DNA of 64,000 bases from Allomuricauda sp. NBRC 101325 (GTDB lineage: Bacteria > Bacteroidota > Bacteroidia > Flavobacteriales > Flavobacteriaceae), in the NCBI RefSeq assembly GCF_030268205.1, contig NZ_BSQF01000001.1, positions 1,036,649 through 1,100,648 on the forward strand, given 5' to 3'. The first letter of the stretch is position 1. Every line of letters starts with the position of its first letter. Of this stretch, positions 17,808-38,996 are shown piece by piece. The position numbers were made by a program, and so were the translations under genes. The notes beneath the pieces were generated by a model that was not told the DNA's origin, made no database searches, and worked only from the letters and a program-made list of their open reading frames with translations.

Positions 17808-18470
17808 TTAAATCATTCTTCCATCCAACAAATTGATGATCCTAGAGCCGTATTCCGCATTTTTTTCTGAATGTGTTACTTGAATAATGGTTACCCCCTC
17901 ATCATTTAATTGTTTGAATAAATCCATGATTTCCTCGCCTTGTTTGGAGTTGAGGTTCCCTGTGGGCTCATCGGCCAAAATCAATTTAGGGTTGGAAATC
18001 AAGGCACGGGCAATACCCACCAATTGCTGTTGACCCCCGCTCAATTGGGAAGGAAACAGGTCTTTTTTGCCCACAATATTGAATCTGTCCAACATATCGG
18101 CCACCATGGCTTTGCGTTCTGAGCCTTTAAATTTTTTGTAGATCAAGGGCATTTCCAGATTTTCCTGCACGGTTAGATCGTCCAACAAATGGTACTGTTG
18201 AAATACAAATCCGATGTATTCTTTGTACAAATTGGAGCGGTGCTTTTCTTTTAGATCATGAACGGAATCCTCCAAAAAGTGGTATTCGCCTTCATCAAAA
18301 GCGTCTAACATTCCAATTACATTGAGCAAGGTGGATTTTCCAGACCCCGAAGGACCCATAATGGAAATGAACTCCCCTTCTTGAACTTCCAGATTTATAT
18401 CTTTCAATAAAAAAATTCGTTGTCCACCGGATTGGACCCATTTGAATATGTTGTTGAGTTGTAGTAGCAT
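17808..18470 (-). CDS. ABC transporter ATP-binding protein, MacB/LolD type, with divergent motifs
   Basis: Last gene of the exporter operon, 220 aa. Walker A GPSGSGKST, Q-loop FVFQQYHLLDDL, Walker B LILADEPTG and H-switch VTHSE are intact. Two normally invariant positions differ: the signature reads LSGGQQQL (usual QR) and the D-loop reads NLN (usual NLD). It therefore probably still binds ATP, but its catalytic cycle may be altered, for example as the degenerate half of a heterodimer with the canonical ATPase at 35591-36286. It starts 10 bp after the last permease. Confidence 0.88.
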   Translation of the reverse strand: MLLQLNNIFKWVQSGGQRIFLLKDINLEVQEGEFISIMGPSGSGKSTLLNVIGMLDAFDEGEYHFLEDSVHDLKEKHRSNLYKEYIGFVFQQYHLLDDLTVQENLEMPLIYKKFKGSERKAMVADMLDRFNIVGKKDLFPSQLSGGQQQLVGIARALISNPKLILADEPTGNLNSKQGEEIMDLFKQLNDEGVTIIQVTHSEKNAEYGSRIINLLDGRMI

Positions 18471-18480
18471 GATTTATAAA

Positions 18481-20931
18481 TTATTCTGTTCGTAAACTTT
18501 TAACGGGGTCGGCAATGGCAGCTTTAATAGCTTGTGAGCTTACTGTTAGCAAGGCAATAGCCAAAGCTATACAGCCAGCAACGGCAAAAATCCACCACTC
18601 GATTTCTATCTTATATGCAAATTTTTGAAGCCATTGGTCCATAAAATACCAAGCAATGGGAGAGGCAAAAATCAAGGCAAGCACAATTAAAACAATGTAT
18701 TCTTTGGAAAGCAATCCCACAATGCCATTTACGGAAGAGCCCAGAACTTTTCGGATGCCGATTTCCTTGGTTCGTTGGAAAGCCGTGAGTACTGCCAGGC
18801 CAAATAGCCCCATACAACTTATTAATATGGCAATAATAGTGGTCAAGTTGATCAGTGTGGCCAATTGCTGTTCCTGTTCATAAAGTTGAGCAATGGATTC
18901 ATCATAAAAGCTATGCTCAAAGCTATCTGCAGGATAAAATTGAGACCATTTTTCCTCAATTTCCTTTAAAGTGGTTGCCCATTCGGAACTGTTCTTACTC
19001 AATTTGATATTAAAATTGCGAAGGTTCCTATTTTCCATTTGAAAGGCCATTGGATCTATAGAGGAATAGAAATCCAACATATGAAAATCGTTTACCACAC
19101 CAACAATAGGGAGCTTTTCATCCTTTTGGCCAATAAATTTACCTAAGGCATCATGAGGGGAATCAAAACCAAATGCCTTTACAGCGGTTTCATTGATTAC
19201 ATATTCCTTTGGTGTATCCGAAACATGAAGATTTCTTCCCGCCAACAATTTTAGATCATATAGGTGGATATAGGATGTGTCCACCCATTTTTTAACAACC
19301 TGTCTGGAAATAGGGGATTTTCCATCTTCAGCATATTCATATTGACCCGAAGAATACCCATCTTCCATAGGAGCAATTCCCAATGAAACTTCTTGAATTC
19401 CAGAAAGGGATTTGAGTTCATCGTACAATGAAAATTGCTTTCCGTTATACTTGTCATTCAACCAAATTTTAAAAGGGATTCCCACCAAAACAACGGCATC
19501 TTTGTTAAAACCCATATCGGATTTAAGTGAGTAATGTAACTGTTTTCCAATAATGATGGAGGACGTTATAAAAACCAAGGCTATGGTAAACTGAAAGACG
19601 ATAAGCACCTTTTGTAGATTGAACCCATGGCTGCGTTTTGTTCTTAGGGAAGAGTTTCTAAAAACATTTATGGCGTTTACACGGGTAATCAACCAACTTG
19701 GGTACAAGCCGGCCAAAAGTGCAATGAAAATGCTGATGGCTAAAATGAAAACCACAAATTCCAAAATTTTGGAAAAAGGGGATATTTCTTTTGGGATAAT
19801 GTCATTTAAAAGCCAAAATCCCATTTTAATCAATAATACCGATAGAATGGCGGCCAAAAAGGAAACTATAAAAGTCTCCAGTAAAAAATGAAAAATGAGT
19901 TGGGTTTTGTTGCCACCCAAAGTTTTCCGAACCCCAATTTCTTTGGCACGTTTGGGAATACTGGCAATCGACATGTTGATATAATTGATACAAGCCAATA
20001 ACAAAATAAATAAAGCAATCCCCAATAGGCCAAAAAGCACTGGTTTACTGGCTTTTCTGATATTTCCTTCACCAACATGTGTCGAAAAATGGGCTTCCTT
20101 TAAAGGCATTAGCTCAATCCAATGTCGGAATTTGAAGGTGCTTTTTGATTGATCTCGCCATTCTTTGGTCTTTTGTTGGAGTACCGTATTGATTTGAGCG
20201 GTTGCGGCATCAGGATTTGATTCCTTTTTGAGTTGTAGATAGAGTCTATCAGAGGCGTTTGTATTGGTCCAAGTATTCAAATCATAAACAGTGTATTCCA
20301 AGGAAAAAAAGGCCGTAGATCCAAAATCACTCGGTTTTTCCAAATCTGCAACCACACCAACCACAATTTTCGGAATGGTATCCCGATACCCGTAATAGAT
20401 AATTTCTTTGTCCAAAACCTCCTCCAGTTTTGAATCTGGGAAATATTGTTTTGCACTTGTTTCGGTTAAAACCACACTATTGGGATTGTCAAAAAAGGAG
20501 TTTTCTGAACCCACCAACCAACGATAGGGCAACATTTTAAAATAGGCCGAATCCACAGAAGCAATATGTTCTTGTTCGCCAAAACTTGTTTTGGCTCCAG
20601 ATTTGGACACAACTTCTACATTTTGAAAGGAGCTTTCAAAAACTGGCACAACATGCTCAAATCCATCCAATTGCTCACGAATTCCTTGATAAATTGGTTT
20701 GGAAGCTCCTCCATTATAATCTTCTTTTTCATCGAAGACATACCCAGTGATTACCCTATAAATTTCTTCTCTGTTCGTTAAGGTGTTATCATAACTGTAT
20801 TCGTAAGACACAATCCTGTAAATGCTCCAGCAAACACTGATTCCAATAGCCAAACCAAAAATGTTCAAAAAGGTGAACAACTTATTTTGCTGTAAGTGTC
20901 GAAATGTTGAAATCAGATATTTTTTTAGCAT
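18481..20931 (-). CDS. ABC exporter permease 7 of 7 (duplicated MacB/FtsX type), 816 aa
   Basis: Two MacB-periplasmic-domain + FtsX modules fused in one chain: an N-terminal membrane helix (about 20-45), a periplasmic domain to about 290, a helix bundle, then a second helix, domain and bundle. Each bundle carries the ATPase-contacting FtsX motif: AKEIGVRKTLG (about 329-339) and TKEIGIRKVLG (721-731). Ends in PVKSLRTE, a tail shared across the array. Gaps of only 10 bp on both sides; it lacks the CATCAATCAA linker present before most paralogues. MacB relatives do not pump across the inner membrane but drive periplasmic substrates or lipids outward. Confidence 0.88.
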   Translation of the reverse strand: MLKKYLISTFRHLQQNKLFTFLNIFGLAIGISVCWSIYRIVSYEYSYDNTLTNREEIYRVITGYVFDEKEDYNGGASKPIYQGIREQLDGFEHVVPVFESSFQNVEVVSKSGAKTSFGEQEHIASVDSAYFKMLPYRWLVGSENSFFDNPNSVVLTETSAKQYFPDSKLEEVLDKEIIYYGYRDTIPKIVVGVVADLEKPSDFGSTAFFSLEYTVYDLNTWTNTNASDRLYLQLKKESNPDAATAQINTVLQQKTKEWRDQSKSTFKFRHWIELMPLKEAHFSTHVGEGNIRKASKPVLFGLLGIALFILLLACINYINMSIASIPKRAKEIGVRKTLGGNKTQLIFHFLLETFIVSFLAAILSVLLIKMGFWLLNDIIPKEISPFSKILEFVVFILAISIFIALLAGLYPSWLITRVNAINVFRNSSLRTKRSHGFNLQKVLIVFQFTIALVFITSSIIIGKQLHYSLKSDMGFNKDAVVLVGIPFKIWLNDKYNGKQFSLYDELKSLSGIQEVSLGIAPMEDGYSSGQYEYAEDGKSPISRQVVKKWVDTSYIHLYDLKLLAGRNLHVSDTPKEYVINETAVKAFGFDSPHDALGKFIGQKDEKLPIVGVVNDFHMLDFYSSIDPMAFQMENRNLRNFNIKLSKNSSEWATTLKEIEEKWSQFYPADSFEHSFYDESIAQLYEQEQQLATLINLTTIIAILISCMGLFGLAVLTAFQRTKEIGIRKVLGSSVNGIVGLLSKEYIVLIVLALIFASPIAWYFMDQWLQKFAYKIEIEWWIFAVAGCIALAIALLTVSSQAIKAAIADPVKSLRTE

Positions 20932-20941
20932 GGTGGAAGTG

Positions 20942-23359
20942 TTATTCGGTTCGTAAACTTTTTACGGGATTGGCCGAAGCAGCTTTTACGGTACGTGTTC
21001 CCACAGTGATAAAGGCAATCAAGGTGGCCAAAAGTCCTGCCGCAATAAAAAACAAAGGACTTAGGGTAACACGAAACGCATAGTTTTGCAGCCATTCATT
21101 TAAAAAATACCAGGCGATTGGCGTGGCTAAGATAAAGGCAATCCCCACCAACTTTAAAAAATCCTTGGTCAGTAACAGTGCAACCGAAGAAACACTTGCA
21201 CCAATCACTTTTCGAACTCCTATTTCTTTGGTGCGTTGTGCCACGACCAACATGGAAATGGCGAACAATCCGATGCAGCTCAATAAGATGCCCAAAATGC
21301 TGCCGCTGGTAACGATGGTGGCCATAGTTTTTTCTCTTCTGAATGTGCGATCTACGTTTTCATCCAAAAAGGAACCCAAAAACTCCGCCTGTGGTTCAAT
21401 GCTGCCCCAAGCTTTTTCAACCGCATCAAATGAAGAGGAAATGTTCTGTGGCGCAATTTTCACATAGGCATAATATAAATCCCAATCGTTGTTCAAGAAC
21501 AAGGTTAGTGGGTTTACTTGTCTACTGATATCCTGAAAATTAAAATCCTTGACCACACCGATGACCGAATATGTGGTAGCGCCATCGTCAATTGGAATAC
21601 GAACGGAAAGAGGGTCTTCTTCGCCCAATTGTTTGGCCATGGTTTCGTTGATTACCAAGCTTAAGCTATCTGCTGCAAAATCCCTACTAAAAGTTCTTCC
21701 AGCGACCACCTCAAGATCCAATGTTTTTGCGTAATCGTAATCGACCGTCAAGGCATTGGTAACCACGCCGCGCCCCTTGTAATCAAACCCCATCATGCTG
21801 CTCATGGAGCTTCCGTCACGGCCCATTCCCAAATTGTTATCAGCTCCAGAAATGTTGAGGATATTGGGATTTCCCTTTAGTTCATCCCGAAGCAATGCAA
21901 CAACTTGATAACTGTCCTTTTTCCCATTTAAAGGGATGGAAATGACCTGTTCTTTGTTATAGCCCAAATCTTTATTGCGCATAAACTCGATCTGACCATG
22001 CAAGACCAAAGTACCGCTGATGAGCAATATGGCGATGGCAAATTGTAGTACGATCAAACTGTTTCGCAAACGATTTTTGCCCAAGTCCATCTTTCCTTTT
22101 AAAGCGCGGAGCGTACCCAATCTGCTCATTAAAAGAGCGGGATATCCCCCTGCTATAAGCGTGATGCAAAAAATAGAAAGTCCGAAAATGAGCAAAATCT
22201 TAGGTTGGGTCACATGCTCCAAAGTAGCTCGAGTATTGAACAAGGATTTGAAAGGTTCCAACAAAAGATTGCCCAAAACCAACCCTAAAATGGTAGATGC
22301 GGTAAACACTAATAAGCTTTCCAACCAAAACTGAAAGAACAATTGCTTTTTTACAGCCCCAAGTGTTTTGCGCATGCCAATTTCCTTTAGACGCTTTTCG
22401 CTCAAGGCAATGTTCATATTTATAAAGTTGGCGCACACAATAAAAATGATCACAAAGGCAATCCCCAAAATCATGTAGGGAAAAGTACGTTTCACTACTG
22501 CAGCTCCACTGGCAAAGGAGGTAAAGTGCATATCGGTTATGGGCAATAAATGGAACTGCATGAACAATCCATCTTCATTGGCAACGGCCCCGTCCCTTTT
22601 GGCATTTTCGATGCTTCCTTGATAATGCAGGCTCGTGAATTCCTGAGTGTTCTTTTCAAATTGATCCGGGGTTACCCCTTCTTCCAATTGTACATAGACC
22701 AAATGGAACTGTGAATCCCAACGGTCGATGTTGGAAGCATATTCAGGATGGTTTTCAAAAGGAATTATAATATCAAAATCGTTGCTGCTATTAGAAGGAG
22801 GGTCTTGCACAATGGCAGAAACGGAGAACAATTGTTCCTCTTTTCCCAACTTTAAAGCGATTGTCTTTCCCACAATGTTTTCAACTGTACCGAATACTTT
22901 TTGAGCACTTTTTTCGGAAAGAACAACACTACTTTTTTCAGACAAAGGGTTTTTAGCTTTACCTGTTATTACGGGAAATGTAAAGAGGTCAAAAAATGCA
23001 GGATCCACGAATTCTGCATCCAAGTTGATTTCTTTGTCATTATAAGTGGCAAAAGTATCATCACTCAAAGTTCGAACGGCATGTTTTATGCCAGGGACAT
23101 CTGCTTTTAAGGCAGGTGCCAAAGGTACAGGTTGTGAAGTGCCCGATTCCAATCCTCTTGGAGTTTGACTTGAAAGATATACCTGATAAACAGAATCTTT
23201 GTTTTTGTGGAATTGATCATAGGATAGTTCAAAAAGGGCGGTCATTACCAACAAAAGGGCAACGGCAAGGGCAGAGGTAAGCCCAATGATGTTTGCCAAA
23301 GTAAAAACCTTGTTCTTGATCAAGTTTCGCCAAGCAATCTTAAAATAGTTCTTAAGCAT
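20942..23359 (-). CDS. ABC exporter permease 6 of 7 (duplicated MacB/FtsX type), 805 aa
   Basis: Begins MLKNYFKIAWRNLIKNKVFT with the first membrane helix at about 20-42. Coupling motifs are LKEIGMRKTLG in the first half and TKEIGVRKVIG about 95 residues from the end; the tail is PVKSLRTE. The 27-bp gap before it contains a CATCAATCAA linker (near 23377-23384). Its two periplasmic domains are diverged from the neighbours while the cytoplasmic contact motifs are conserved, as expected if the paralogues handle different ligands but use a common ATPase. Confidence 0.88.
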   Translation of the reverse strand: MLKNYFKIAWRNLIKNKVFTLANIIGLTSALAVALLLVMTALFELSYDQFHKNKDSVYQVYLSSQTPRGLESGTSQPVPLAPALKADVPGIKHAVRTLSDDTFATYNDKEINLDAEFVDPAFFDLFTFPVITGKAKNPLSEKSSVVLSEKSAQKVFGTVENIVGKTIALKLGKEEQLFSVSAIVQDPPSNSSNDFDIIIPFENHPEYASNIDRWDSQFHLVYVQLEEGVTPDQFEKNTQEFTSLHYQGSIENAKRDGAVANEDGLFMQFHLLPITDMHFTSFASGAAVVKRTFPYMILGIAFVIIFIVCANFINMNIALSEKRLKEIGMRKTLGAVKKQLFFQFWLESLLVFTASTILGLVLGNLLLEPFKSLFNTRATLEHVTQPKILLIFGLSIFCITLIAGGYPALLMSRLGTLRALKGKMDLGKNRLRNSLIVLQFAIAILLISGTLVLHGQIEFMRNKDLGYNKEQVISIPLNGKKDSYQVVALLRDELKGNPNILNISGADNNLGMGRDGSSMSSMMGFDYKGRGVVTNALTVDYDYAKTLDLEVVAGRTFSRDFAADSLSLVINETMAKQLGEEDPLSVRIPIDDGATTYSVIGVVKDFNFQDISRQVNPLTLFLNNDWDLYYAYVKIAPQNISSSFDAVEKAWGSIEPQAEFLGSFLDENVDRTFRREKTMATIVTSGSILGILLSCIGLFAISMLVVAQRTKEIGVRKVIGASVSSVALLLTKDFLKLVGIAFILATPIAWYFLNEWLQNYAFRVTLSPLFFIAAGLLATLIAFITVGTRTVKAASANPVKSLRTE

Positions 23360-23386
23360 GTTTTTCGTTTTTTGGTTGATTGATGT

Positions 23387-25837
23387 TTATTCTGTCCGTA
23401 AAGACTCCACGGGATTAACATTGGCGGCACGATAGGTTCTTGTTCCAATCACGGCCAAGGCAACCAATACCATCCCAAATCCACTTGTCAGGAATACCCA
23501 CCAACTTAAGTTGGTTTTAAAGGCAAAGCTTTGGATCCATTCTTGAATCAAATACCAAGAAATAGGCACAGAAATCACAAACGCAATTCCGATAAGAATC
23601 AAGAATTCTTTGGAAAGTTCCATATTGAGTTGGGCCAAATTCGCCCCCAAAACTTTACGAACGCCAATTTCCTTAACTCTTCTTTCCGTGGTGTACACAA
23701 CCAATCCCAAAAGCCCCATACAACTGATTAAAATGGAAAGTCCGGTAGCCCATGTCAATAATTGAACGGTGCTACGTTCAGATCGGTAAAAGCCTTCTAC
23801 GATTTCATCCATAAACTGCACTTGTACTTCCTCATCGGGATAAATGGAGGCCCAAGCCTGCTCAATTTGTTTTACCGAACTCGTCCAATTTTCTGAATTT
23901 TTCCCGAGATCAAAATGAATGCTGTTGAACATGGAATAATCGTCATCTCCCCAATCACCGGTAATGGCCATGGGTGCAATGTCTGTGTGCAAAGAATGTT
24001 GATGGAAATCGCGCATCAATCCCACCACTGGAATTTTTAACGTATCCAATTTTACGAAGGTGCCAATTACATTAGCTGGATCCTGAAATCCGACTTCCCG
24101 TGCAAAGGCTTCGTTTACGATGTATTCCTTAACACTATCGTTCAACATTTGTCTACCAGACAAAAGCGGGATATTATAAGTGTTGAGGTAGTTGACATCG
24201 CCCCACAACAATTGGGTTTCTTGGTGCATTTCTGCATCCTCCTTAAAATAGGTAAGAATAGTTGTGGAATAATTATTGGAAGCTGGAGGATTACCGCCCC
24301 AACTTACATTGGAAAGCTCTTGAATGTCTTTGACCGCATTATACAATCGTTCCTTTTTCACATCGGATTTATCGTTCCAAGGCGTGTTGATGTATGCCGT
24401 TGCATTGGTTTTGAGCCCCATGTCCTTGTTCATTACATAATGGAGTTGTTTGGTTACCAACAAGGTGGCAATCACAAATACTTGAGCCACCACAAACTGA
24501 AAAACGGTCAAAGTCTTGCGAAGTCGAACTCCTTTATCCCCTTTGGAGAATTGCCCCTTTAAAACCAATACAGGTTTAAATCCAGAAAGCACAAAGGCGG
24601 GATAAAATCCGGACAAAAAGCTCACGAGTACAATCAAAACCAATATGCCAAATGCACCTTTTAGGCTATACAATATGGATAGGTTGATATCTGTTGGCAA
24701 AAAATCTGTAAACTGGCGCAGCAATAAGGGAGCAAGCACCAAGGACAAAACAGCCGCGATACAGGTAAGAATCAAGGTTTCGAACAAAAATTGACGCACT
24801 ACCTGTTTTTTGGAACTTCCCAAGGTTTTTCGAATGCCGATTTCCTTGGCTCGTGTTAATGCTTGGGCCGAATTTAAATTGATAAAGTTGGCGCAACCCA
24901 ATAATAATAGGAACAATGCCACAAACCCCAAACTTTTTAAAACTTTTATGCTGGCAACATGATTGGAATTATTAAATGGATATTCGCCATATTCTCCACC
25001 AAAATGTAGACTGGTCAAGGGTTGAAGCATAAATGTGCGCTCATCATTTATAGCCCATTCTGCCATGTTTTTATGTTCCTTGGCCAATTCCTTGAGACGA
25101 GCTTCAACCAATGCAACACCAGCCTCATCTTTGACTTTAAAAAACAGTTGGTCCCCAGAGCTTGTACCATTCCAATGATCATTGGTAACGATATCCTTTG
25201 CCCCAAACATTTTGGCCGAGGACAATGACATAAAATCAGTAAACTTGAAGTCGCTGTTTTGTTTGAAATCTGCCACTACACCACTAACCTTTACCGAAAC
25301 GGAATCGTTAAACATTAGGGTTTTGCCCACCACATCCGAAACAGGGGTATGCGGAAAATATCTTTGGGCTTTTTTTTCCGAAAGAACCACTTGCGCAGGA
25401 TTGGAAAGTGCCGATTTGCGATCTCCGGCCAACCAATCGTATTCCAAAAGTTCAAAGTAAGCGTTATCCGCAAATATGGCGTCTTCAATATTTTTAAAGG
25501 TAAGATCTTGTGGTTTGTTTTCAACCTTAAAAAAATTGGCGCTCATAAAGGGGGCGGCCAGTTCAACACCGGGCATTCCTTCTTGAAAAGTTCGCATTAA
25601 AGGTACCGCAACGCCTCTGTTGGAAAAGTGGTTTCCGTTTGATTCAAAAACTGTGGTAACCCTATAAATTTTGTCTTTTTCCTTATGGAAAGTATCAAAG
25701 GAAAAATCAAAATAAACAATGGCACCGATGACCATGGCGGAGCAAATTCCAATGGACAAACCCAATACATTGATAAAAGAGAAAAGTTTGTTTTTTAGGA
25801 TGCTTCGCCAAGCAATTTTTAAATGGTTGAAAAACAT
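23387..25837 (-). CDS. ABC exporter permease 5 of 7 (duplicated MacB/FtsX type), 816 aa
   Basis: Begins MFFNHLKIAWRSILKNKLFS. First coupling motif AKEIGIRKTLG (in the QALTRAKEIG segment), second VKEIGVRKVLG; tail NPVESLRTE, with Glu replacing the usual Lys. Separated from permease 4 by 21 bp whose linker is a degenerate form (TAATCAAAT). Fully intact, no frameshift, comparable length to its paralogues. Confidence 0.88.
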   Translation of the reverse strand: MFFNHLKIAWRSILKNKLFSFINVLGLSIGICSAMVIGAIVYFDFSFDTFHKEKDKIYRVTTVFESNGNHFSNRGVAVPLMRTFQEGMPGVELAAPFMSANFFKVENKPQDLTFKNIEDAIFADNAYFELLEYDWLAGDRKSALSNPAQVVLSEKKAQRYFPHTPVSDVVGKTLMFNDSVSVKVSGVVADFKQNSDFKFTDFMSLSSAKMFGAKDIVTNDHWNGTSSGDQLFFKVKDEAGVALVEARLKELAKEHKNMAEWAINDERTFMLQPLTSLHFGGEYGEYPFNNSNHVASIKVLKSLGFVALFLLLLGCANFINLNSAQALTRAKEIGIRKTLGSSKKQVVRQFLFETLILTCIAAVLSLVLAPLLLRQFTDFLPTDINLSILYSLKGAFGILVLIVLVSFLSGFYPAFVLSGFKPVLVLKGQFSKGDKGVRLRKTLTVFQFVVAQVFVIATLLVTKQLHYVMNKDMGLKTNATAYINTPWNDKSDVKKERLYNAVKDIQELSNVSWGGNPPASNNYSTTILTYFKEDAEMHQETQLLWGDVNYLNTYNIPLLSGRQMLNDSVKEYIVNEAFAREVGFQDPANVIGTFVKLDTLKIPVVGLMRDFHQHSLHTDIAPMAITGDWGDDDYSMFNSIHFDLGKNSENWTSSVKQIEQAWASIYPDEEVQVQFMDEIVEGFYRSERSTVQLLTWATGLSILISCMGLLGLVVYTTERRVKEIGVRKVLGANLAQLNMELSKEFLILIGIAFVISVPISWYLIQEWIQSFAFKTNLSWWVFLTSGFGMVLVALAVIGTRTYRAANVNPVESLRTE

Positions 25838-25858
25838 GGTTAGTGTTTATTTGATTAA

Positions 25859-28291: not shown

Positions 28292-28314
28292 GATCTGTGT
28301 TTTTTGAAGATGAT

Positions 28315-30714: not shown

Positions 30715-30735
30715 GACGATTCGTTTTTGATTGAT

Positions 30736-33150
30736 TTATTCCGTTCTCAAGCCTTTGGTGGGTTTCACCAAAGCAGCTCCGATTGATTGATAACTAATGG
30801 TTAGTATGGCCACACCGAGGGCGATGATGCCTGCGGATATAAAAATTCCCAGTCCAATGTTAATGTGATAGGCAAAACCTTCCAGCCAGCGGTTCATCAA
30901 GTACCAGCCAATGGGAATGGCGATGCAGATGGAAACCAAGATCAACTTTAAAAAGTCGAGGGTCAAGAGTTGATAAATGCTTTTGAAAGGTGCACCCAAA
31001 ACCAATCGGATGCTGATTTCCTTTTTGCGCTGTTCCACCATAAATGCGGATAGTGCAAACAGTCCCAAGCAGGCCACAAGAATGGCAAATAGCGCAAAAC
31101 TGTTGAAGATTTTACCCATTCGTTGCACATCGTCGTGCATTTGGGCGAATTCCTGTTCCATAAAATTATAGCTCAAAGTTTGGTTCGGAATATTGCTGTC
31201 CCAAATGGCTTCAATAGCCGCCAAAGCTTCGGACGGATTTCCTTTTTCCAATTTCACGGAAACGGCCCCAATGTTTTCTCCAATAACTAAAGACAAGGCA
31301 GAAATATCTTCCTTGAGTGATTTAAAATGAAAATCTTCGATTACACCAATTACATTAAAGGTTTGTCCATTGCTCACTTTTTTTCCGATGGGGTCTTTCA
31401 AACCTAAATCGGAGGCCATCTTGGAATTGATAATAATTGCGTTTTCGGAGTCGGTAGCGAATTCTTTGGAAAAATCCCTTCCTTTTTTTAATTCTATGCC
31501 CAAGGTTTTAATGTAATCGTAATCTACCCTCCAAATTTGTGCAGGAACGCCTCGACCGCCATCATCTTTGTTTTCTAGCCTAAAGGTGTTCCCATTTCTA
31601 CTTCCGCCATCAAGTGGCAAATAACTGGTCGCTGTCACACTTTTTACTTGCGCTAATCCCAAAAGTTGATTCTTGAAAGATTCCATTTTGTCACCCAAAA
31701 TATTGGTGCCTTCCAATACGACCACCTGTTCTTTTTGGTAGCCCAATTTTTTGTTGATGATGTAATCCATTTGTTGGTAAATGATCAGCGTACCAATAAT
31801 CAAAACCACCGAAGTTGTAAATTGAAAAACCACCAGTCCACTTCTTAATTTGCCACTTTTGCTGCCGATGCTTAAGCTGCCCTTTAGTACATTGGCAGGT
31901 CTAAAAGCTGATAAATAAAATGCGGGATAGAGTCCTGCCAACACTCCCACGATCAAAGAAGAAACGAACAAAACAGGCAAGAACCACCATGCCGTCCAAG
32001 GCATAACGATTTTTTTGGCTGCGATTTCGTTGAACATGGGTAAAAGTGTCCAGGCCATTACTGTACCCAAAACAAATGAAATGATACTGAACAAAACTGA
32101 TTCCGTTAAGAACTGGTTTACCAAGTTGTTTCTAAACGCTCCAATGGTTTTTCGAAGTCCAACCTCTTTGGCTCGGTTAGCAGATTTGGCCGTGGAAAGA
32201 TTGATAAAATTGATGATGGCCAATAACAAAACAAAAAGGGCAATGGCAGCAAACAACCAAACAAATTTGATGTCACCATGTTTAAGCCCGTCCTGCATTT
32301 TTAAGTCGGATTTTAAATAAATGTCCGAAATGGGTTGAAGTTTGTATTCAATGGTTCGTAAAACATTGATGAAGTCGGCAGAACGACCCCGTTCAATTTG
32401 AGCGGGGATAATATATTTTTCTACAACTGAAGCCATTTTTTGCTCCAATCCGGCAATGTTGGTATTGGGATTTACCAAAACATAGGTAAAGTAATTTTGG
32501 TTGGTCCACCCTCCATATTGATCGTCTACGGGCAATAGAAAATCAAAGTTGAGATGTGAGTTTTTGGGCACATCTTGCATAATGCCTGTGATGGTGTAGG
32601 GCTTGGTCGCATCATTGTCCAAAAACACCGTTTGGCCAACTGCATTTCCATTGGGGAAATATTTTGCGGCCTTGGATTCAGATAAAACAATGCTTTGGGG
32701 GTTCGTCAAAGCTGTTTTTGCATTTCCTTGCTCCAATTCGATTTCCAAAATGTTGAAAGCCTCTTGGTCGGCCAACAGGAAATTTTCTTCAAAGGTGTTT
32801 TCTTGCTTGCCTTCCAATCGGAACCCTCTTTTTCCTGCACCAAAAATCTCGATGGAATTTACTTTTCCTGCTTTTTCAATTTCGGCAAAATCGGTTTGAA
32901 GCGCTTCAGCAAATGGCAATGGAAAATGGGTGCTTTTCATCACCTCCCCCTCAAAAACACCTTGCATTACCACCCTGTAAATTTGGTCGTTCTTTGCGTA
33001 GTGCTTGTCGTAGCTCACTTCATTTTTAATGAAAAGGGAAATCAAAATACAGGCACAGATACCCACTGCAAACCCTCCAATTTTGATGATAGTGAAGAGT
33101 TTGTCTTTTTTGATGGATCGCCAGGCGACATTTAAATGGGTTCTGAACAT
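30736..33150 (-). CDS. ABC exporter permease 2 of 7 (duplicated MacB/FtsX type), 804 aa
   Basis: Begins MFRTHLNVAWRSIKKDKLFT. First coupling motif AKEVGLRKTIG is standard; the second reads KKEISIRLVLG, with Ser for Gly and Leu for Lys, the most divergent contact motif of the array. Tail KPTKGLRTE also deviates. This paralogue may engage the ATPases differently, perhaps pairing with the divergent ATPase. The CATCAATCAA linker lies at 33163-33171. Confidence 0.88.
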   Translation of the reverse strand: MFRTHLNVAWRSIKKDKLFTIIKIGGFAVGICACILISLFIKNEVSYDKHYAKNDQIYRVVMQGVFEGEVMKSTHFPLPFAEALQTDFAEIEKAGKVNSIEIFGAGKRGFRLEGKQENTFEENFLLADQEAFNILEIELEQGNAKTALTNPQSIVLSESKAAKYFPNGNAVGQTVFLDNDATKPYTITGIMQDVPKNSHLNFDFLLPVDDQYGGWTNQNYFTYVLVNPNTNIAGLEQKMASVVEKYIIPAQIERGRSADFINVLRTIEYKLQPISDIYLKSDLKMQDGLKHGDIKFVWLFAAIALFVLLLAIINFINLSTAKSANRAKEVGLRKTIGAFRNNLVNQFLTESVLFSIISFVLGTVMAWTLLPMFNEIAAKKIVMPWTAWWFLPVLFVSSLIVGVLAGLYPAFYLSAFRPANVLKGSLSIGSKSGKLRSGLVVFQFTTSVVLIIGTLIIYQQMDYIINKKLGYQKEQVVVLEGTNILGDKMESFKNQLLGLAQVKSVTATSYLPLDGGSRNGNTFRLENKDDGGRGVPAQIWRVDYDYIKTLGIELKKGRDFSKEFATDSENAIIINSKMASDLGLKDPIGKKVSNGQTFNVIGVIEDFHFKSLKEDISALSLVIGENIGAVSVKLEKGNPSEALAAIEAIWDSNIPNQTLSYNFMEQEFAQMHDDVQRMGKIFNSFALFAILVACLGLFALSAFMVEQRKKEISIRLVLGAPFKSIYQLLTLDFLKLILVSICIAIPIGWYLMNRWLEGFAYHINIGLGIFISAGIIALGVAILTISYQSIGAALVKPTKGLRTE

Positions 33151-33172
33151 GTTTTTTGATTTTGATTGATGA

Positions 33173-35560
33173 TTATTCGGTTCGGAGGCTTTTTACAGGG
33201 TTGGTCAATGCTGCTTTTATGGCTTGATAACTTATGGTGGCCAGTGTAATGGTCATAATTATGGCGACGGCCAAAACAAATATCCACCAGTTGATAGCTG
33301 TTCGATACTCAAAGTTTTCCAGCCAGCGGTGCATAAAATACCAGGCGATGGGAGTTGCAATAATACCTGCGATGACGATGAGTTTTAAGAAATCCTGCAT
33401 CACTAGTGCCACCAAATGTTGTACACTTCCTCCCAATACTTTTCGGATGCCAATTTCCTTTGTTTTTTGCACCACAAAGAAGAGGATAAGGCCATAAATT
33501 CCTAAACAACCGATAAAAATGGCAATTCCAGAGAACACCCCGATCAATGAAAGGAATCGTTGTTCGGTTTCATAAAGTTCGGCGACATTGTCATCTAAAA
33601 AGGCATAATCGAACAAGTAATCGGGGAATAATGCGGACCATTCTTTTTCGATATGGTTCAATGCTTCATCCGCAGAGGCCAGATTGATCTTCACGGCCAA
33701 TTCCGAGTATATTTGGGGTGCGGGAGCTATAAATATGGGGTTGATGCTACTATGAAAATCACGATCATGAAAATCGGCAACTACTCCAACAATTTTAGCA
33801 TTTAGGGTGCCACCGTTAATGGATAATGGTTTGCCCAAGATTTCCTGTGCATTGGTAGCCCCAATTTTGCGAACGAAAGTTTCATTTACCACTAATTCGT
33901 CAACCGAATCCTTTTCATAAAAGTTTCGACCAGCGACCAATTCCAAATCAAAAGCATCCAAATAGTTTTTATCCCCAGCCTTCACTTGAAGACTGAATTC
34001 TTCTGGTTCTGGACGGTTGTTGTAGACTACTCCAGTTCCCCAATTGTTGTTGCTTGCCCCTGGTGACCCAAAGCAGGCGGTTACATTTGCTACGCTGGAG
34101 TTTTGTGCAATTCTTTCTTTTAGGCCATTTAATTGGGTTAATTCGATGTATTCCGGAATTTCAACCATGACCATTCCATCTTTGGTAAAGCCCAAGTCTG
34201 AATCAATAGCATATTTTAATTGTTTGGTAATAACGATGGAACCAATGATCAATACGATAGAAATGGCGAATTGAACCACAACCAAAGCTTTTCGGGTAAC
34301 ATAACCTCCAGCATCGTTTTGTGAAACTTTTCGTTTTAAGGCCAAAACGGGAGCTATTCTTGCCAATAAAAGACCTGGATAACTTCCTGCCAATAAGGTT
34401 ACCAATCCCAATAGGAGAATAACAAAACCAGCAAATTTTAATTGAAACAGCGTGGTAATGGAAAGGTCAAGATCAAAAAGAGTATTGAAAGAGGGCAAAA
34501 TGGAAACACAGAGGCCAATGCCGATAACCAATGCTAAAACACTCACGATAAATGTCTCAGCCATAAACTGCCAGAACAGTTGGTTTTTAAAACTGCCCAA
34601 CACTTTTCGAACACCAACCTCTTTAGATCTATAGGTAGACTGTGCCGTGGAAATATTGATAAAATTGATACAGGCGACAATGAGTATAAAAAGCCCTACC
34701 AAAGAAAATATCCATAAGGTTTTGGTATCTACACCACCCTCATACCTAGAGTCCAAATGTACTTGAGCGAGCGGTTGAACCTTGTAATGATGCACATTTT
34801 TGGTGTTTGGCCTATATTTCTGTACGTATCCTTGAAGCTGATTTTCGATTTGTGCGATGTCTTGATTCGGACGCATTAAAGCAAAACAATGCAGCGAAGA
34901 GTTGATGCCTCCCCAAGCTTCTGACGACATAAACTCATCATAACTTTTCAAGGTTTCGAACGATACAAAGATTTGTTCCCCCACAAAAGTATTGTTGGGC
35001 AAATCTTGGAGCACCGCTGTGATAGTTATGGTCTGATTGTTTTCTATCTCAAAAGTTTGGTTGATAGGATTGGTATCCCCAAACATGAGTTTAGCCATTT
35101 CCTCGGTGATCATGGCGGTATTTGGCTCTGCAATAGGAGCACCATTGGAACCATCCACCAATGGAAAATTGAAAATGTCGAAAAACTCAGGTTCCACAAA
35201 TGCAACTTCAGATGTAAATTGCTTCCGACCCATGTAGCCTTCCAAAGTGATTAGGTAGTTTCGCCGATCTACATATTTGGCCACTTTTTCGGCATAGTCG
35301 TAATCTTGCCTAAAGGCATTGGCAAAGCCAGGGGGCACTGCAGCCTCATACTCAATAAAATCGCGATGTTCTTCGGTTGCAAATCGGTAGATACGGTCAC
35401 TATTGTTATGGAAATTATCGAACCGCAAATGGTGTTGTACAAACAGAAATACCAGAATACTGCAGCCAAAACCAAGCGATAGCCCCAAAATATTGATCAG
35501 GGTAAAGCCTTTTCGTTTCCGAAGACTTCTCCAAGCGATTTTAAATTGATTTTTGAGCAT
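33173..35560 (-). CDS. ABC exporter permease 1 of 7 (duplicated MacB/FtsX type), 795 aa
   Basis: First and shortest permease. Begins MLKNQFKIAWRSLRKRKGFT, membrane helix about 20-42. Coupling motifs SKEVGVRKVLG (about 312-322) and TKEIGIRKVLG (about 700-710); tail NPVKSLRTE. Lies 30 bp after the canonical ATPase gene, with the linker at 35571-35580. Probably the best-expressed permease given its operon position. Confidence 0.88.
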   Translation of the reverse strand: MLKNQFKIAWRSLRKRKGFTLINILGLSLGFGCSILVFLFVQHHLRFDNFHNNSDRIYRFATEEHRDFIEYEAAVPPGFANAFRQDYDYAEKVAKYVDRRNYLITLEGYMGRKQFTSEVAFVEPEFFDIFNFPLVDGSNGAPIAEPNTAMITEEMAKLMFGDTNPINQTFEIENNQTITITAVLQDLPNNTFVGEQIFVSFETLKSYDEFMSSEAWGGINSSLHCFALMRPNQDIAQIENQLQGYVQKYRPNTKNVHHYKVQPLAQVHLDSRYEGGVDTKTLWIFSLVGLFILIVACINFINISTAQSTYRSKEVGVRKVLGSFKNQLFWQFMAETFIVSVLALVIGIGLCVSILPSFNTLFDLDLSITTLFQLKFAGFVILLLGLVTLLAGSYPGLLLARIAPVLALKRKVSQNDAGGYVTRKALVVVQFAISIVLIIGSIVITKQLKYAIDSDLGFTKDGMVMVEIPEYIELTQLNGLKERIAQNSSVANVTACFGSPGASNNNWGTGVVYNNRPEPEEFSLQVKAGDKNYLDAFDLELVAGRNFYEKDSVDELVVNETFVRKIGATNAQEILGKPLSINGGTLNAKIVGVVADFHDRDFHSSINPIFIAPAPQIYSELAVKINLASADEALNHIEKEWSALFPDYLFDYAFLDDNVAELYETEQRFLSLIGVFSGIAIFIGCLGIYGLILFFVVQKTKEIGIRKVLGGSVQHLVALVMQDFLKLIVIAGIIATPIAWYFMHRWLENFEYRTAINWWIFVLAVAIIMTITLATISYQAIKAALTNPVKSLRTE

Positions 35561-35590
35561 GATTTGTTTTTTGATTGATGAATAGACCCC

Positions 35591-36286
35591 TTATACCATG
35601 GCACCCATGGGCTTGTTCTGACTTTCGGTTACAATTTGTCCGTCGAACAAGTTGATGACCCTGTGTGCATAATGTGAATCGCGATCGGAGTGCGTTACCA
35701 TAACAATGGTTGTGCCCTCTTGGTTGAGTTCTGTTAACAGGTTCATCACCTCGATTCCGTTTTTGGAATCCAGGTTACCAGTTGGCTCATCCGCTAAGAT
35801 CAATTTTGGATTTGTGACAACGGCTCTTGCAATGGCTACCCTTTGCTGCTGCCCCCCTGATAATTGCTGTGGAAAGTGTTTTTCGCGGTGTGCAATTTTC
35901 ATGCGCTCCAATACTTTCTGCACTTTTTCCCTTCTTTCCGCCTTGTTCATTTTAAGATAGATCAAAGGAAGTTCCACGTTTTCAAAAACGGTAAGCTCAT
36001 CAATAAGGTTAAAGCTCTGGAATACAAAACCTAGGTTTCCTTTACGCAATTGGGTACGTTGGCTTTCTTTAAGTCCCCCTACTTTGTGTCCTGCGAAATT
36101 GTAGCCACCTTCGCTTGGGTTGTCCAACATGCCGATGATGTTCAACAAAGTTGATTTTCCACATCCAGAAGGGCCCATAATGGCAACGAATTCCCCTTTT
36201 TCCACTTTTAGATTAACCCCGTTCAATGCCAAGGTCTCTACTTCTTCGGTTCGAAAGCTTTTCTTAAGATTTGTTATCTGTATCAT
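35591..36286 (-). CDS. ABC transporter ATP-binding protein, MacB/LolD type (canonical)
   Basis: 231 aa cytoplasmic ATPase that energises the FtsX-type permeases downstream. All motifs are intact: Walker A GPSGCGKST, Q-loop FVFQSFNLIDEL, signature LSGGQQQRVAIARAV, Walker B LILADEPTG, D-loop NLD, H-switch VTHSD. It follows the adaptor gene by 65 bp that contain the CATCAATCAA linker. Contrast with the operon's other ATPase at 17808-18470, which has an altered signature and D-loop. Confidence 0.93.
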   Translation of the reverse strand: MIQITNLKKSFRTEEVETLALNGVNLKVEKGEFVAIMGPSGCGKSTLLNIIGMLDNPSEGGYNFAGHKVGGLKESQRTQLRKGNLGFVFQSFNLIDELTVFENVELPLIYLKMNKAERREKVQKVLERMKIAHREKHFPQQLSGGQQQRVAIARAVVTNPKLILADEPTGNLDSKNGIEVMNLLTELNQEGTTIVMVTHSDRDSHYAHRVINLFDGQIVTESQNKPMGAMV

Positions 36287-36351
36287 TTTTTGATGGTTGT
36301 TTTTATGTTTTAAAGACTTTGTTCGTTTGATTGATGTTACACTTCTCGGAT

Positions 36352-37602
36352 TTATTTTAAGACAATCCGTTCTGCATCACCAAAACTATCATAGTTGCTG
36401 GTAATGACTTGATCTCCAGGTTCTAGTCCCTCAAGGACTTCATAATATCTTGAATTTTGTTTTCCTAGGCGCACATTGCGTCGAATGGCTTCGTTTCCAT
36501 TGGCATCCACCACGAATACCCATTGACCTCCCGTGCTTTGGAAAAAGCCTCCTTTTGGCAACAACAATGCGTCGTTCGATTCTCCCAATTGCAGTCTAAT
36601 GTTGTAGCTCTGTCCAGCTCGGATGGTTTCTGGTTTATCGTCATTGAACACCAAATCCACCTGAAACCTTCCGTTGCGAACCTCGGGGTATACTTTACGG
36701 ACACGCAACGGATATTCATTCCCATTACGTTCCAATGTGGCAGAAAGGTCACGCTTTACACGATCAATATAATGCTCGTCGATGTTGGCTTCGATTTTGA
36801 AGTCTGTCAACACATTAATTTGTCCAATACGTTGTCCTTGAGCAATACTTTGGCCAATTTCTGCATCTAAAAACCCTAATTGCCCGTCCGCGGGAGCTCG
36901 TACGTTGAGGTGATCTAACCGTTCGTAAACCATGGACAGGGTTTTGGTCATACGATCCATATCGGCATCCAATCCCTTTAGGGATGTTTCCCGTAACTCA
37001 TCGTCTTGCTCGGTTTGAATTTTTACAATTTCGTATTGTTTTTGGGCAAGTTCATAATCCTCTTGAGCCTGGAGATAAATCTCTTTGGAAACCAGTTCGT
37101 CTTCATATAGGGCTTTGTTCTGCTCATAGTTTCTTTTGGAGCGTTGCAGGTCGAACTGCGCATCGGCCAAAGAGCGTTTTCCTTGAACTTGTCTGGAATC
37201 GAAAGTAAGTTTGGTGGAACGCAGATCGTTTTGTTTCAACGCCAAGTTACTTTCACTGGCCAAAATCTGCTCGTAAAGGTTCATGTTTTCCAATTTAAGG
37301 ATAATGTCCCCCTTTTTAACCATGGAACCTTCCTCGATCAATTTTTCTGAAACCCTTCCGCCTTCGTAGGCATCCATAAAAATGGTGGCAATAGGCGCAA
37401 CGCTTCCGTTGATGGTAATGTAATCGTCAAATTTTCCAGGGGTTACCGATGCAATGGAAAGTCGTTCCTTTTCGGTTCTGAAGGTGGACATGGATGTAGC
37501 AAACAATAGTTTGTACCCCACAAACAGAAGGAGTACGCCCAAGGCAATGTATCCGAAGTGTTTTGGTTTAAGTCCTTTCTTTTTTTCTAATTGTATATCC
37601 AT
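36352..37602 (-). CDS. periplasmic adaptor (membrane fusion protein, HlyD/MacA family)
   Basis: 416 aa. One membrane anchor (about residues 17-36), then a lipoyl half-motif (VAPIATIFMDAYEGGRVSEK, about 70-90), an alpha-helical hairpin of coiled-coil character (about 105-225), the returning lipoyl half (LNVRAPADGQLGFLDAEIGQ), and beta-barrel and membrane-proximal domains. It bridges the MacB-type permeases to the TolC-type channel encoded just upstream. Starts 8 bp after the channel stop codon, so the two are co-translated. Confidence 0.93.
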   Translation of the reverse strand: MDIQLEKKKGLKPKHFGYIALGVLLLFVGYKLLFATSMSTFRTEKERLSIASVTPGKFDDYITINGSVAPIATIFMDAYEGGRVSEKLIEEGSMVKKGDIILKLENMNLYEQILASESNLALKQNDLRSTKLTFDSRQVQGKRSLADAQFDLQRSKRNYEQNKALYEDELVSKEIYLQAQEDYELAQKQYEIVKIQTEQDDELRETSLKGLDADMDRMTKTLSMVYERLDHLNVRAPADGQLGFLDAEIGQSIAQGQRIGQINVLTDFKIEANIDEHYIDRVKRDLSATLERNGNEYPLRVRKVYPEVRNGRFQVDLVFNDDKPETIRAGQSYNIRLQLGESNDALLLPKGGFFQSTGGQWVFVVDANGNEAIRRNVRLGKQNSRYYEVLEGLEPGDQVITSNYDSFGDAERIVLK

Positions 37603-37610
37603 GGTTCGTT

Positions 37611-38951
37611 TTAGTTGATGTTAAAAATGGGTAGCCCGTTATAAAAATCTATGGTACTCTGGTTCACCTTCAGTCTTAGGGCCACCTGTAAGTTTTCATT
37701 TTGTGCAACGCCATACAAGTTTTTGGCTTGAAAAAGTTCCAATGCGTTGATCAATCCTTTATCATATCGTTTTTGAGCGATGGTAAAGGCCAATTCTTGC
37801 GATTCCATCTTCTTTTTACTTTGTTCAAATTCTGAAACCAAGGCATGATTGCTTTGCACCAATTGTTGAAGCACTTTGAACAATTCCTGCTCTTGGATCT
37901 CCAGATTGTTTTTAGCCTGTTCGAAGGCAATTTTTCGTTGTTTTACGGCTGAGTGGTTGGCCCACCCATAACTTAAGGGAATGTTGAGCGAAGCACCAAC
38001 ATATTTAGAGGAGTTGTCCTTGAATTGCGTTCTGAACGGAATTAGATTGCCATCGTCATCCACATTGGTCTCAAAATAGCTTGTTCCAATACCTGCGACA
38101 AGTGAAAGTGAGGGATACAGCGAGCCGCGCGTAGCTTGCAATTGCTTTTTGGCTGCGGTTACTCGATATTCCTGGGATTTGACCAATGGAATAAAACCTC
38201 GTGCCGTTTCATAAAGTGAATCCAACTCTACGCCCTTCTCTTCTGTTTCGGGGGCGTAGTTTAAATTTTTTTGTAATTCAATATCATTTTGGCCGGTCAA
38301 ATTCATTTCTTGTAGCAAAATCAATTTGGCATCCGCCAACAAATTGCGGTTTTGTGTTACCAAAAATTTATCACCCAATAAGTTGGATTCTGCCTCATAC
38401 AAATCTGACCCTGCTTTTAGCCCCAATTCCACTTGGCGTTGCACCAAATCGTAATTGGCTTGGGACAGTTCTTGTTGTTCCAAAGAGTTTGCCAATAGCC
38501 CTTCGTAATATTTTATATCGTAAAAGGCGGACATCACCCTAAAGGCCAGCATGTATTTTTCTTGATCAATATCTTCCTCTGAAGCTTTATAGATAAACTT
38601 GGTGGCTTTGATCAGGTTCATTTTTTGAAATCCTCTAAAAATGTCCAGATTGGCACCTACTGAATAATTGTTGCTAAAGAAATCGGTGTTTACATAGGTA
38701 TTCGTGTTAGGGTCGGGAGAACGACCATATCGAATGGTGTAATCTGTGGATCCGTCAACCGAGGGCAATAAATTCCGTACCGATTGCCTGTAGCTTTCCT
38801 TGCTGGAATCCATATTGAAATTGGTATTCTTAACCTGAAGGTTGTGTTCTATGGCGTAGGCCACACAATCATCCAATGTCCAAGTTTGTTGGGCATTTCC
38901 AGTCCAGGCCAGGAATACGAAAAGGGTTGTGATGTAAATTCTAAGGTTCAT
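37611..38951 (-). CDS. TolC-family outer-membrane efflux channel
   Basis: 446 aa from ATG 38951 (MNLRIYITTLFVFLAWTGNA), which gives a clean signal peptide cleaved near NAQ-Q; the ATG at 38975 adds a non-signal prefix and lies within putative promoter sequence. Mature protein starts TWTLDDCVAYAIEHNLQV, the OEP-family hallmark; the two OEP repeats each form a barrel strand pair plus long periplasmic helices. First gene of the exporter operon, divergent from the sigma-54 activator. TolC-like proteins are trimers spanning the outer membrane and periplasm. Confidence 0.92.
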   Translation of the reverse strand: MNLRIYITTLFVFLAWTGNAQQTWTLDDCVAYAIEHNLQVKNTNFNMDSSKESYRQSVRNLLPSVDGSTDYTIRYGRSPDPNTNTYVNTDFFSNNYSVGANLDIFRGFQKMNLIKATKFIYKASEEDIDQEKYMLAFRVMSAFYDIKYYEGLLANSLEQQELSQANYDLVQRQVELGLKAGSDLYEAESNLLGDKFLVTQNRNLLADAKLILLQEMNLTGQNDIELQKNLNYAPETEEKGVELDSLYETARGFIPLVKSQEYRVTAAKKQLQATRGSLYPSLSLVAGIGTSYFETNVDDDGNLIPFRTQFKDNSSKYVGASLNIPLSYGWANHSAVKQRKIAFEQAKNNLEIQEQELFKVLQQLVQSNHALVSEFEQSKKKMESQELAFTIAQKRYDKGLINALELFQAKNLYGVAQNENLQVALRLKVNQSTIDFYNGLPIFNIN

Positions 38952-38963
38952 TTTTTCTATGCT

Positions 38964-38996
38964 GTGCCAAAACATAGTCTATTCTTGTGCCAAAAA
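38964..38996 (-). promoter_or_regulatory. two sigma-54 -24-like elements (TTTTGGCAC) before the TolC-type gene
   Basis: On the minus strand TTTTGGCAC occurs at 38972-38964 and 38995-38987, inside an 18-base direct repeat. The distal copy is spaced so that a start site near 38966 would give a leader of about 15 bases. The -12 half is poor (TAGA instead of TTGC), so this is only suggestive. Confidence 0.35.

Follow-up and report, generated by a model that had tools for sequence, protein, structure and literature searches.

We analysed a window of 64,000 nucleotides from Allomuricauda sp. NBRC 101325 (the whole stretch of DNA considered here). On its minus strand we identified genes that are transcribed in the order outer-membrane channel, adaptor, ATPase1, seven permeases (p1 to p7) and ATPase2. 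The first gene encodes a TolC/OEP-type outer-membrane channel (37611..38975; PF02321 OEP, 9.1e-42), for which 38951 (MNLRIY) is a likelier start than 38975. It is followed by genes for a periplasmic adaptor (36352..37602; profile matches to HlyD_3 and RND_mfp, DarC-like) and for ATPase1, a LolD/MacB-class ABC ATPase with canonical motifs (35591..36286; PF00005, motif and tree comparison). The permeases are p1 (33173..35560, 795 aa, family A), p2 (30736..33150, 804 aa, family B), p3 (28315..30714, 799 aa, family C), p4 (25859..28291, 810 aa, family D), p5 (23387..25837, 816 aa, family E), p6 (20942..23359, 805 aa, family F) and p7 (18481..20931, 816 aa, family G). The spacers from p1 to p7 are 22, 21, 23, 21, 27 and 10 bp, and p7 lies 10 bp from ATPase2, a second ABC ATPase at the far end of the array (17808..18470; PF00005, own clade, altered motifs). 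Open reading frames were measured from the earliest possible start codon, and some lengths may therefore be overestimates.

The initial annotation had placed here an operon of seven consecutive permeases of 795-816 aa, spaced by 10-27 bp, with a single adaptor and a single outer-membrane channel. This description holds: all seven are full length, and the operon has one HlyD_3/RND_mfp gene and one OEP gene. However, it omitted the regulators, and ATPase2 as well, although that gene lies within the interval it covered. The overlooked second ATPase alters the overall picture.

Divergent from the operon, on the plus strand, are genes for a response regulator with a sigma-54 activator domain and a Fis-type HTH (39305..40666; PF00158, PF00072, PF02954) and for a sensor histidine kinase (40666..42015; PF02518). 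Both adjoin the array, and the channel is the leading gene, in all clusters of the genus whose front end is present in the data. Directly upstream of the operon is a putative sigma-54-like promoter element (TTTTGGCAC-N5-TnG; 38979..38995, minus strand). GGCA occurs between 80 bases upstream and 20 bases inside the first gene in 23/30 clusters, compared to 3.0 expected from shuffles; since the clusters are related, these 23 cases are not independent sightings. When sequences were anchored on GGCA alone, the tenth base after its first G was T in 23/23 and the twelfth was G in 17/23. This is the spacing of a -24/-12 element, although the -12 half is weak. The genome encodes rpoN. A second GGCA is located exactly 23 bases downstream in 11 of the 30 clusters, eight of them from the genus (the stretch concerned corresponds to 38950-38995, minus strand, of the window).

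The element does not qualify as a strict sigma-54 promoter. A good match is confined to the -24 half, and the best score of the full consensus in the window was attained by 39/300 shuffles. Sigma-54 activators usually carry a GAFTGA loop, and the contact loop of the window regulator is GSFTDA, not GAFTGA. Given the weak -12 half, the shuffle result and this loop, we term the element sigma-54-like.

Permease sequence, fold and inheritance

A profile search identified MacB_PCD matches in 7/7 permeases, and the three that were scanned singly (p7, p6 and p1) each have two MacB_PCD and two FtsX stretches. All seven were also placed by alignment and in the permease tree. They can be aligned over their full length, are 29-33% identical to p1, and end in LRTE. 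Mean pairwise identity is 0.36-0.47 in the membrane and cytosolic parts versus 0.22-0.27 in the periplasmic parts, in agreement with the earlier view that the periplasmic parts have diverged. That both ATPase-contact motifs are retained in all seven needs qualification: the second coupling motif of p2 is KKEISIRLVLGA rather than KEIGVRKVLGA, but the coupling motifs are otherwise conserved.

The common LRTE tail is present as noted before, but it is not peculiar to this operon. Among 257 permeases (those outside 760-900 aa and open-ended ORFs were excluded), 104 end in LRTE, 32 in LRSE and 15 in LKSE, and we therefore discarded the tail as a hallmark of this operon. A publication on MacB describes a C-terminal 'minor coupling helix' (PMC5985334), of which the LRTE tail may be the positional counterpart.

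We modelled p3, as the sole permease, with AlphaFold (51-row alignment; pLDDT 83.9, pTM 0.79). In the model, eight long helices of membrane type accompany two periplasmic domains. Its fold matches include YbbP, MacB, LolE and BceAB, and the top Foldseek match is E. coli YbbP (1.5e-21, TM 0.49). VIA-align gave Z 25.1 against YbbP (661 aligned residues, rmsd 9.2), Z 18.4 for residues 1-413 against MacB, and Z 16.0 for residues 414-798 against LolE. According to the YbbAP-TesA study, two ATPases bind one permease chain (2 ATPase : 1 permease), the halves of the YbbP chain mimic a MacB dimer, and two extra linker helices bring YbbP to 10 TM (PMC12646458). In each permease chain, two MacB-type halves are fused, as judged from the domain matches and the p3 model. 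Taken with the YbbAP stoichiometry, the fold suggests that a single permease may constitute the whole transmembrane unit, so that heteromers are not implied by the presence of an array.

The description of the permeases as duplicated is correct in that they are paralogues, but they are not recent copies. Recent tandem duplication was ruled out by paralogue identities of ~30-36% and by synonymous sites that are near saturation in the three pairs tested. Measured against close orthologues, dN/dS is 0.027-0.053 for p1-p6; p7 could be compared only with a distant orthologue, at saturated dS. The permeases are old paralogues under purifying selection, in keeping with the earlier impression that all look functional. 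It is very improbable that they are mostly redundant or decaying, with one or two in use. The array of genome G003 does include two stop-containing permeases among its seven (in-frame stops, in a draft assembly), but the low dN/dS of p1-p6, the seven full-length genes and the retention of orthologues across species count against decay.

In a FastTree phylogeny of 78 permeases from the genus (ORFs <600 aa excluded), p1-p7 fall in separate families, each with orthologues in other genomes. This was the outcome of an orthology check proposed with the initial annotation, which held that random copy numbers with no orthology would speak against its interpretation. Copy number does vary widely, but orthology and gene order are strong. 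Relative order is kept in 158/167 pairs of single-copy families shared between genomes, whereas 1,000 label shuffles gave a mean of 0.499 and a maximum of 0.749 (family labels were read from the tree; unplaced permeases and families doubled in a genome were excluded). The tree families and the conserved order rule out random copies without orthology, and the variation in copy number is thus not random.

In the genome G008, p6 and p7 are absent. Its match to the window operon runs as far as the end of p5 and resumes at the last bases of p7; the two matching segments overlap by 17 bases in the stretch encoding the LRTE end. In the window, the last 18 bases of p1-p7 have a mean identity of 0.79, and the preceding 18 bases 0.56. 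This single event suggests that alike gene ends could serve as seams for the gain and loss of whole cassettes. In a comparison of the window with G008 (23387-35560), dS is 0.36, 0.47 and 0.52 for p1-p3, and 1.00 and 1.06 for p4 and p5. Synonymous divergence thus increases along the array, as if parts had recombined.

Arrays in the genus and in other Bacteroidota

The recurring unit consists of regulators, then TolC, adaptor, ATPase1, n permeases and ATPase2. We examined the window genome and 12 other genomes of the genus, and identified nine complete arrays with n = 4-14 (window 7, G001 4, G002 7, G003 7, G004 8, G005 5, G008 5, G009 10 and G011 14). The arrays of G006, G010 and G012 are interrupted by contig ends, and no array match was found in G007, an 83%-complete genome. 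A 400-base probe links G011 and G009 to the named loci of Allomuricauda sediminis and Flagellimonas hymeniacidonis. All eight complete arrays from other genus genomes have the same flanks as in the window (FabH-BCCP-AccC-DAO on one side and a GreA-like gene on the other), and we conclude that the array expands and contracts in place.

Adaptor relatives of 81-91% identity led to 80 named loci that were retained; matches at 89-91% are from Flagellimonas and Allomuricauda (Muricauda). An adaptor-ATPase1-(at least two permeases) arrangement is present in 77/80 and regulator-channel-adaptor in 79/80. ATPase2 was reached in only two of the 80, and the complete arrays have n = 2 (L075, Allomuricauda ochracea) and n = 3 (L085, Muricauda sp. 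CP2A).

We screened 60 genomes of the family and drew clusters from 30 (all ten further ATPase2-positive genomes, and mainly larger ones among the others). The ATPase1-permeases-ATPase2 arrangement was found in 10/16 clusters from other Flavobacteriaceae genera, with n = 27, 10, 7, 6, 5, 4, 4, 4, 3 and 3. The other 6/16 clusters lack ATPase2, which is also absent genome-wide (E <= 1e-80), and have 1, 1, 2, 2, 2 and 3 permeases; in one of them (G041) a permease is located between the adaptor and ATPase1. ATPase2 is thus dispensable for some such permeases. In 6/10 of the ATPase2-bearing clusters (G037, G039, G044, G050, G064 and G079), a channel-like gene is found past ATPase2 and not at the front. 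Loci of other flavobacterial genera with a channel-like gene on the far side of ATPase2 are L127, L129, L132, L133, L134, L138 and L163.

The phylum sample yielded ten regions, of which G181 belongs to the family of the window. Six have ATPase1-permeases-ATPase2 (G139, G143, G154, G167, G081 and G181), in some cases with other genes inserted, and the part of the G186 region that was retrieved is consistent with this layout. In G194 both ATPases are close together, ahead of the permeases. The retrieved arrays of G127 and G177 contain no ATPase, and in G127 the permease array is on a separate contig from the ATPase1 and ATPase2 matches, which are on two other contigs. These three departures argue against a strict layout rule, yet they fit sharing in trans.

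Across these samples, n varies (4-14 in the genus, 2-3 in named loci, 3-27 in ten other genera) while ATPase1, ATPase2 and the adaptor stay single. The initial annotation left it open whether the permeases are interchangeable or heteromeric. Several permeases might assemble into a joint exporter, perhaps around a single adaptor hexamer, as the presence of many permeases with one adaptor and one channel might suggest; the conserved order can likewise reflect ordered assembly. However, n ranges from 2 to 27 with partners unchanged, several genus arrays lack families such as A and E-G, and every chain amounts to a fused dimer in its own right, with two coupling helices. A heteromeric machine is therefore a poor fit and decidedly improbable, and interchangeable permeases fit much better.

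Unrelated genes lie between permeases in some arrays; none does in the array of the window. Those with signal-peptide-like starts (judged by eye) encode esterases, an alpha/beta-hydrolase, a beta-lactamase-family protein and DUF2807 (L105:11570-12307, L107:4039-4878, L127:8762-9589, L131:17916-18779, L008:9885-11381, L135:17681-18418, L155:16287-17015). The genome of the window also has, at G000:C1:335581-341960, four half-size MacB-type permeases (~420 aa) that surround a single ATPase match (C1:337588-338256), possibly a second multi-permease locus.

Some permeases might use the adaptor and channel while others handle lipids or proteins in the manner of LolCDE or YbbAP-TesA, sharing only the ATPases. 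Among solved structures, YbbP is nearest in fold over the full length, its proposed role being the extraction of hydrophobic molecules on behalf of a hydrolase in the periplasm (PMC12646458), and genes for esterases, an alpha/beta-hydrolase and a beta-lactamase-family protein occur in the arrays of several relatives. But the other inserts are of mixed kinds and inserts are few in number, and the adaptor gene is at the ATPase1 end in 10/12 genus clusters (the remaining two are cut by contig ends) and in 16/16 clusters of other Flavobacteriaceae genera. We regard such a division of functions as unlikely.

The two ATPases and permeases outside arrays

Both ATPase1 (34 sequences) and ATPase2 (28) retain the lysine of Walker A and the glutamate of Walker B. 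The D-loop Asp is present in 34/34 ATPase1 and replaced in 28/28 ATPase2, by Asn (22, as in the window) or His (6). The signature motif of ATPase2 is LSGGQQQ[LVI]VG (LSGGQQQLVG in the window) as opposed to LSGGQQQRVA in ATPase1. Directly after the Q-loop, a region that presumably faces the permease, Tyr-His is found in 28/28 ATPase2 and Phe-Asn in 34/34 ATPase1. Because many of the aligned sequences are related, the shared changes are not independent events (the alignment was limited to complete ORFs of 200-300 aa scoring >290 bits, and ATPase1 or ATPase2 was assigned by better score). In a quick tree that included six other ATPases of the genome, and in which some long branches were flagged, ATPase2 forms a separate clade (SH-aLRT 100, stem 1.12) and ATPase1 is not a closed clade.

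Among 118 phylum genomes (best 25 candidates per genome), ATPase2 was identified once per genome in 24, all with permeases, and in no genome without them; its matches score 366.9 bits and up, and the next match 310.9. Seven of the 118 have permeases without ATPase2. At least three permeases were counted (best 8 candidates per genome) in 22/24 ATPase2 genomes versus 1/7 other permease-bearing genomes (Fisher p = 2.5e-4). This link between ATPase2 and array size is correlative.

Published accounts of heterodimeric ABC proteins indicate that D-loop aspartate changes can alter coupling and are tolerated in a degenerate site, and that a D-loop Asp change in ABCG5/8 had no effect (PMC4242082, PMC7756269). 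As in heterodimeric pairs, two distinct ATPases with asymmetric motifs are encoded together here. That ATPase1 and ATPase2 form an asymmetric heterodimer is, in our estimate, slightly less likely than not. The coupling motifs of permeases from array clusters (229, including a few regions with no ATPase seen or with the array cut), from clusters without ATPase2 (11) and from outside arrays (17) do not differ visibly. Thus, these motifs predict no split between ATPase1 and ATPase2, and we dropped the idea that coupling motifs are adapted to ATPase2. The genomes also encode further LolD-class ATPases, which could drive some of the permeases.

Permeases are also scattered outside arrays. The genome G038, from another genus, encodes 46 permeases, 27 in the array and 19 outside, and eight ATPases similar to ATPase1 (E <= 1e-40), including two ATPase1 and one ATPase2. 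We retrieved the neighbourhoods of 17/19 outside permeases (L109-L122, L177). For 16 of these orphans (14 stretches), a search of the surrounding ~3-5 kb for relatives of ATPase1, ATPase2, the adaptor and the channel gave no match (E <= 1e-20); the 17th is ~1.1 kb from the second ATPase1 copy. An overlapping PadR-type regulator gene accompanies 879-911 aa ORFs in three scanned cases (two in G038 and one in G009; L143 is among the loci). The orphans retain the coupling and tail motifs, and a shared engine may thus extend to permeases outside the array. In two reports, 28 and 33 duplicated orphan permeases 'of unknown function' are described in two Dyadobacter genomes (PMC11573002), and 102, of which 80 are transcriptionally active, in an acidobacterial genome (PMC10564751).

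A candidate shared export engine

We consider it more likely than not that the operon encodes a tripartite Type VII ABC exporter in which an engine and exit are shared by a library of interchangeable permeases. ATPase1, ATPase2, the adaptor and the TolC-type channel would form the one common engine and exit. Each fused-dimer permease would dock singly onto the ATPase dimer, and its divergent periplasmic domains would select the substrate. ATP-driven closing of the ATPase dimer would be relayed via the coupling helices to the periplasmic domains (mechanotransmission, as in MacB), and substrate from the periplasm or from the outer leaflet of the inner membrane would be pushed into the duct formed by adaptor and TolC. 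The two-component system would govern the whole set via the sigma-54-like promoter. The analysis itself establishes the gene layout, the orthology and conserved order of the permeases, purifying selection, a predicted fold, and the two ATPase clades with their association with arrays. We infer that the ATPases are shared, that the permeases act singly, that transport runs in this direction and that the two-component system is in control.

An FtsX-type fold, coupling helices and a MacB-type periplasmic domain place the system among Type VII ABC transporters, and the predicted HlyD_3/RND_mfp adaptor and OEP channel in the operon are those of tripartite efflux at the gene level. By the tests made, it is a variant of Type VII ABC tripartite exporters, and not MacB proper, DarBCD or ADOP. 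It resembles MacAB-TolC in the MacB-type periplasmic core, FtsX membrane fold, adaptor, TolC-type channel and LolD/MacB-class ATPase. However, in MacB proper the ATPase is fused to a four-helix permease, whereas here separate ATPase genes of two kinds accompany seven duplicated 8-helix permeases of ~800 aa.

The darobactin exporter DarBCD has the same kinds of genes (a ~780-aa permease model, an adaptor and a separate ATPase), and its NCBIfam models (NF038007, NF038008, NF038010) rank first for ATPase1, ATPase2 and the adaptor. Equivalog cut-offs are not reached (ATPase1 303.1 and ATPase2 246 of 375, adaptor 206 of 450, and the three scanned permeases 108-171 of 700). DarBCD has one permease and one ATPase, unlike the seven permeases and two ATPases here. 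For this comparison, biosynthesis genes were sought among the immediate neighbours.

YbbAP-TesA also combines a fused two-half permease with an ATPase pair, and is the best full-length fold match, but it has a single permease, one kind of ATPase, and the hydrolase TesA in place of adaptor and channel. ADOP (TIGR03434, 'duplicated permease') has the same double-permease build, and is the top NCBIfam model for the three scanned permeases (p7 301.5, p6 288.2, p1 330.5; cut-off 622.3 not reached). ADOPs are not known to have a neighbouring ATPase gene, whereas this array is bounded by ATPase genes at both ends. We found no published description of such arrays in the titles and abstract starts of open-access papers, a set that mostly leaves aside subscription journals.

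ECF transporters are importers with unrelated membrane subunits. The likeness to them is in how the system would work (one energising module, exchangeable membrane parts), and the only homology we propose is that of the ABC ATPases. In ECF group II, the EcfAA'T module has two ATPases and different S-components are proposed to compete. An export counterpart, in which a dedicated asymmetric ATPase pair with adaptor and channel powers a growing set of swappable fused permeases, scattered ones included, is a tentative idea to which we give somewhat less than even chances.

Tripartite exporters are usually described as one permease and one engine. In the kind of locus described here, the number of permeases varies from 2 to 27 around a constant engine, which includes a consistently altered second ATPase associated with the arrays. 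If the permeases share this engine, specificity can evolve through addition of cassettes to an existing pump. A shared engine would also be a candidate power source for duplicated orphan permeases, and if it is ECF-like it would explain how those of Bacteroidota, at least, are powered.
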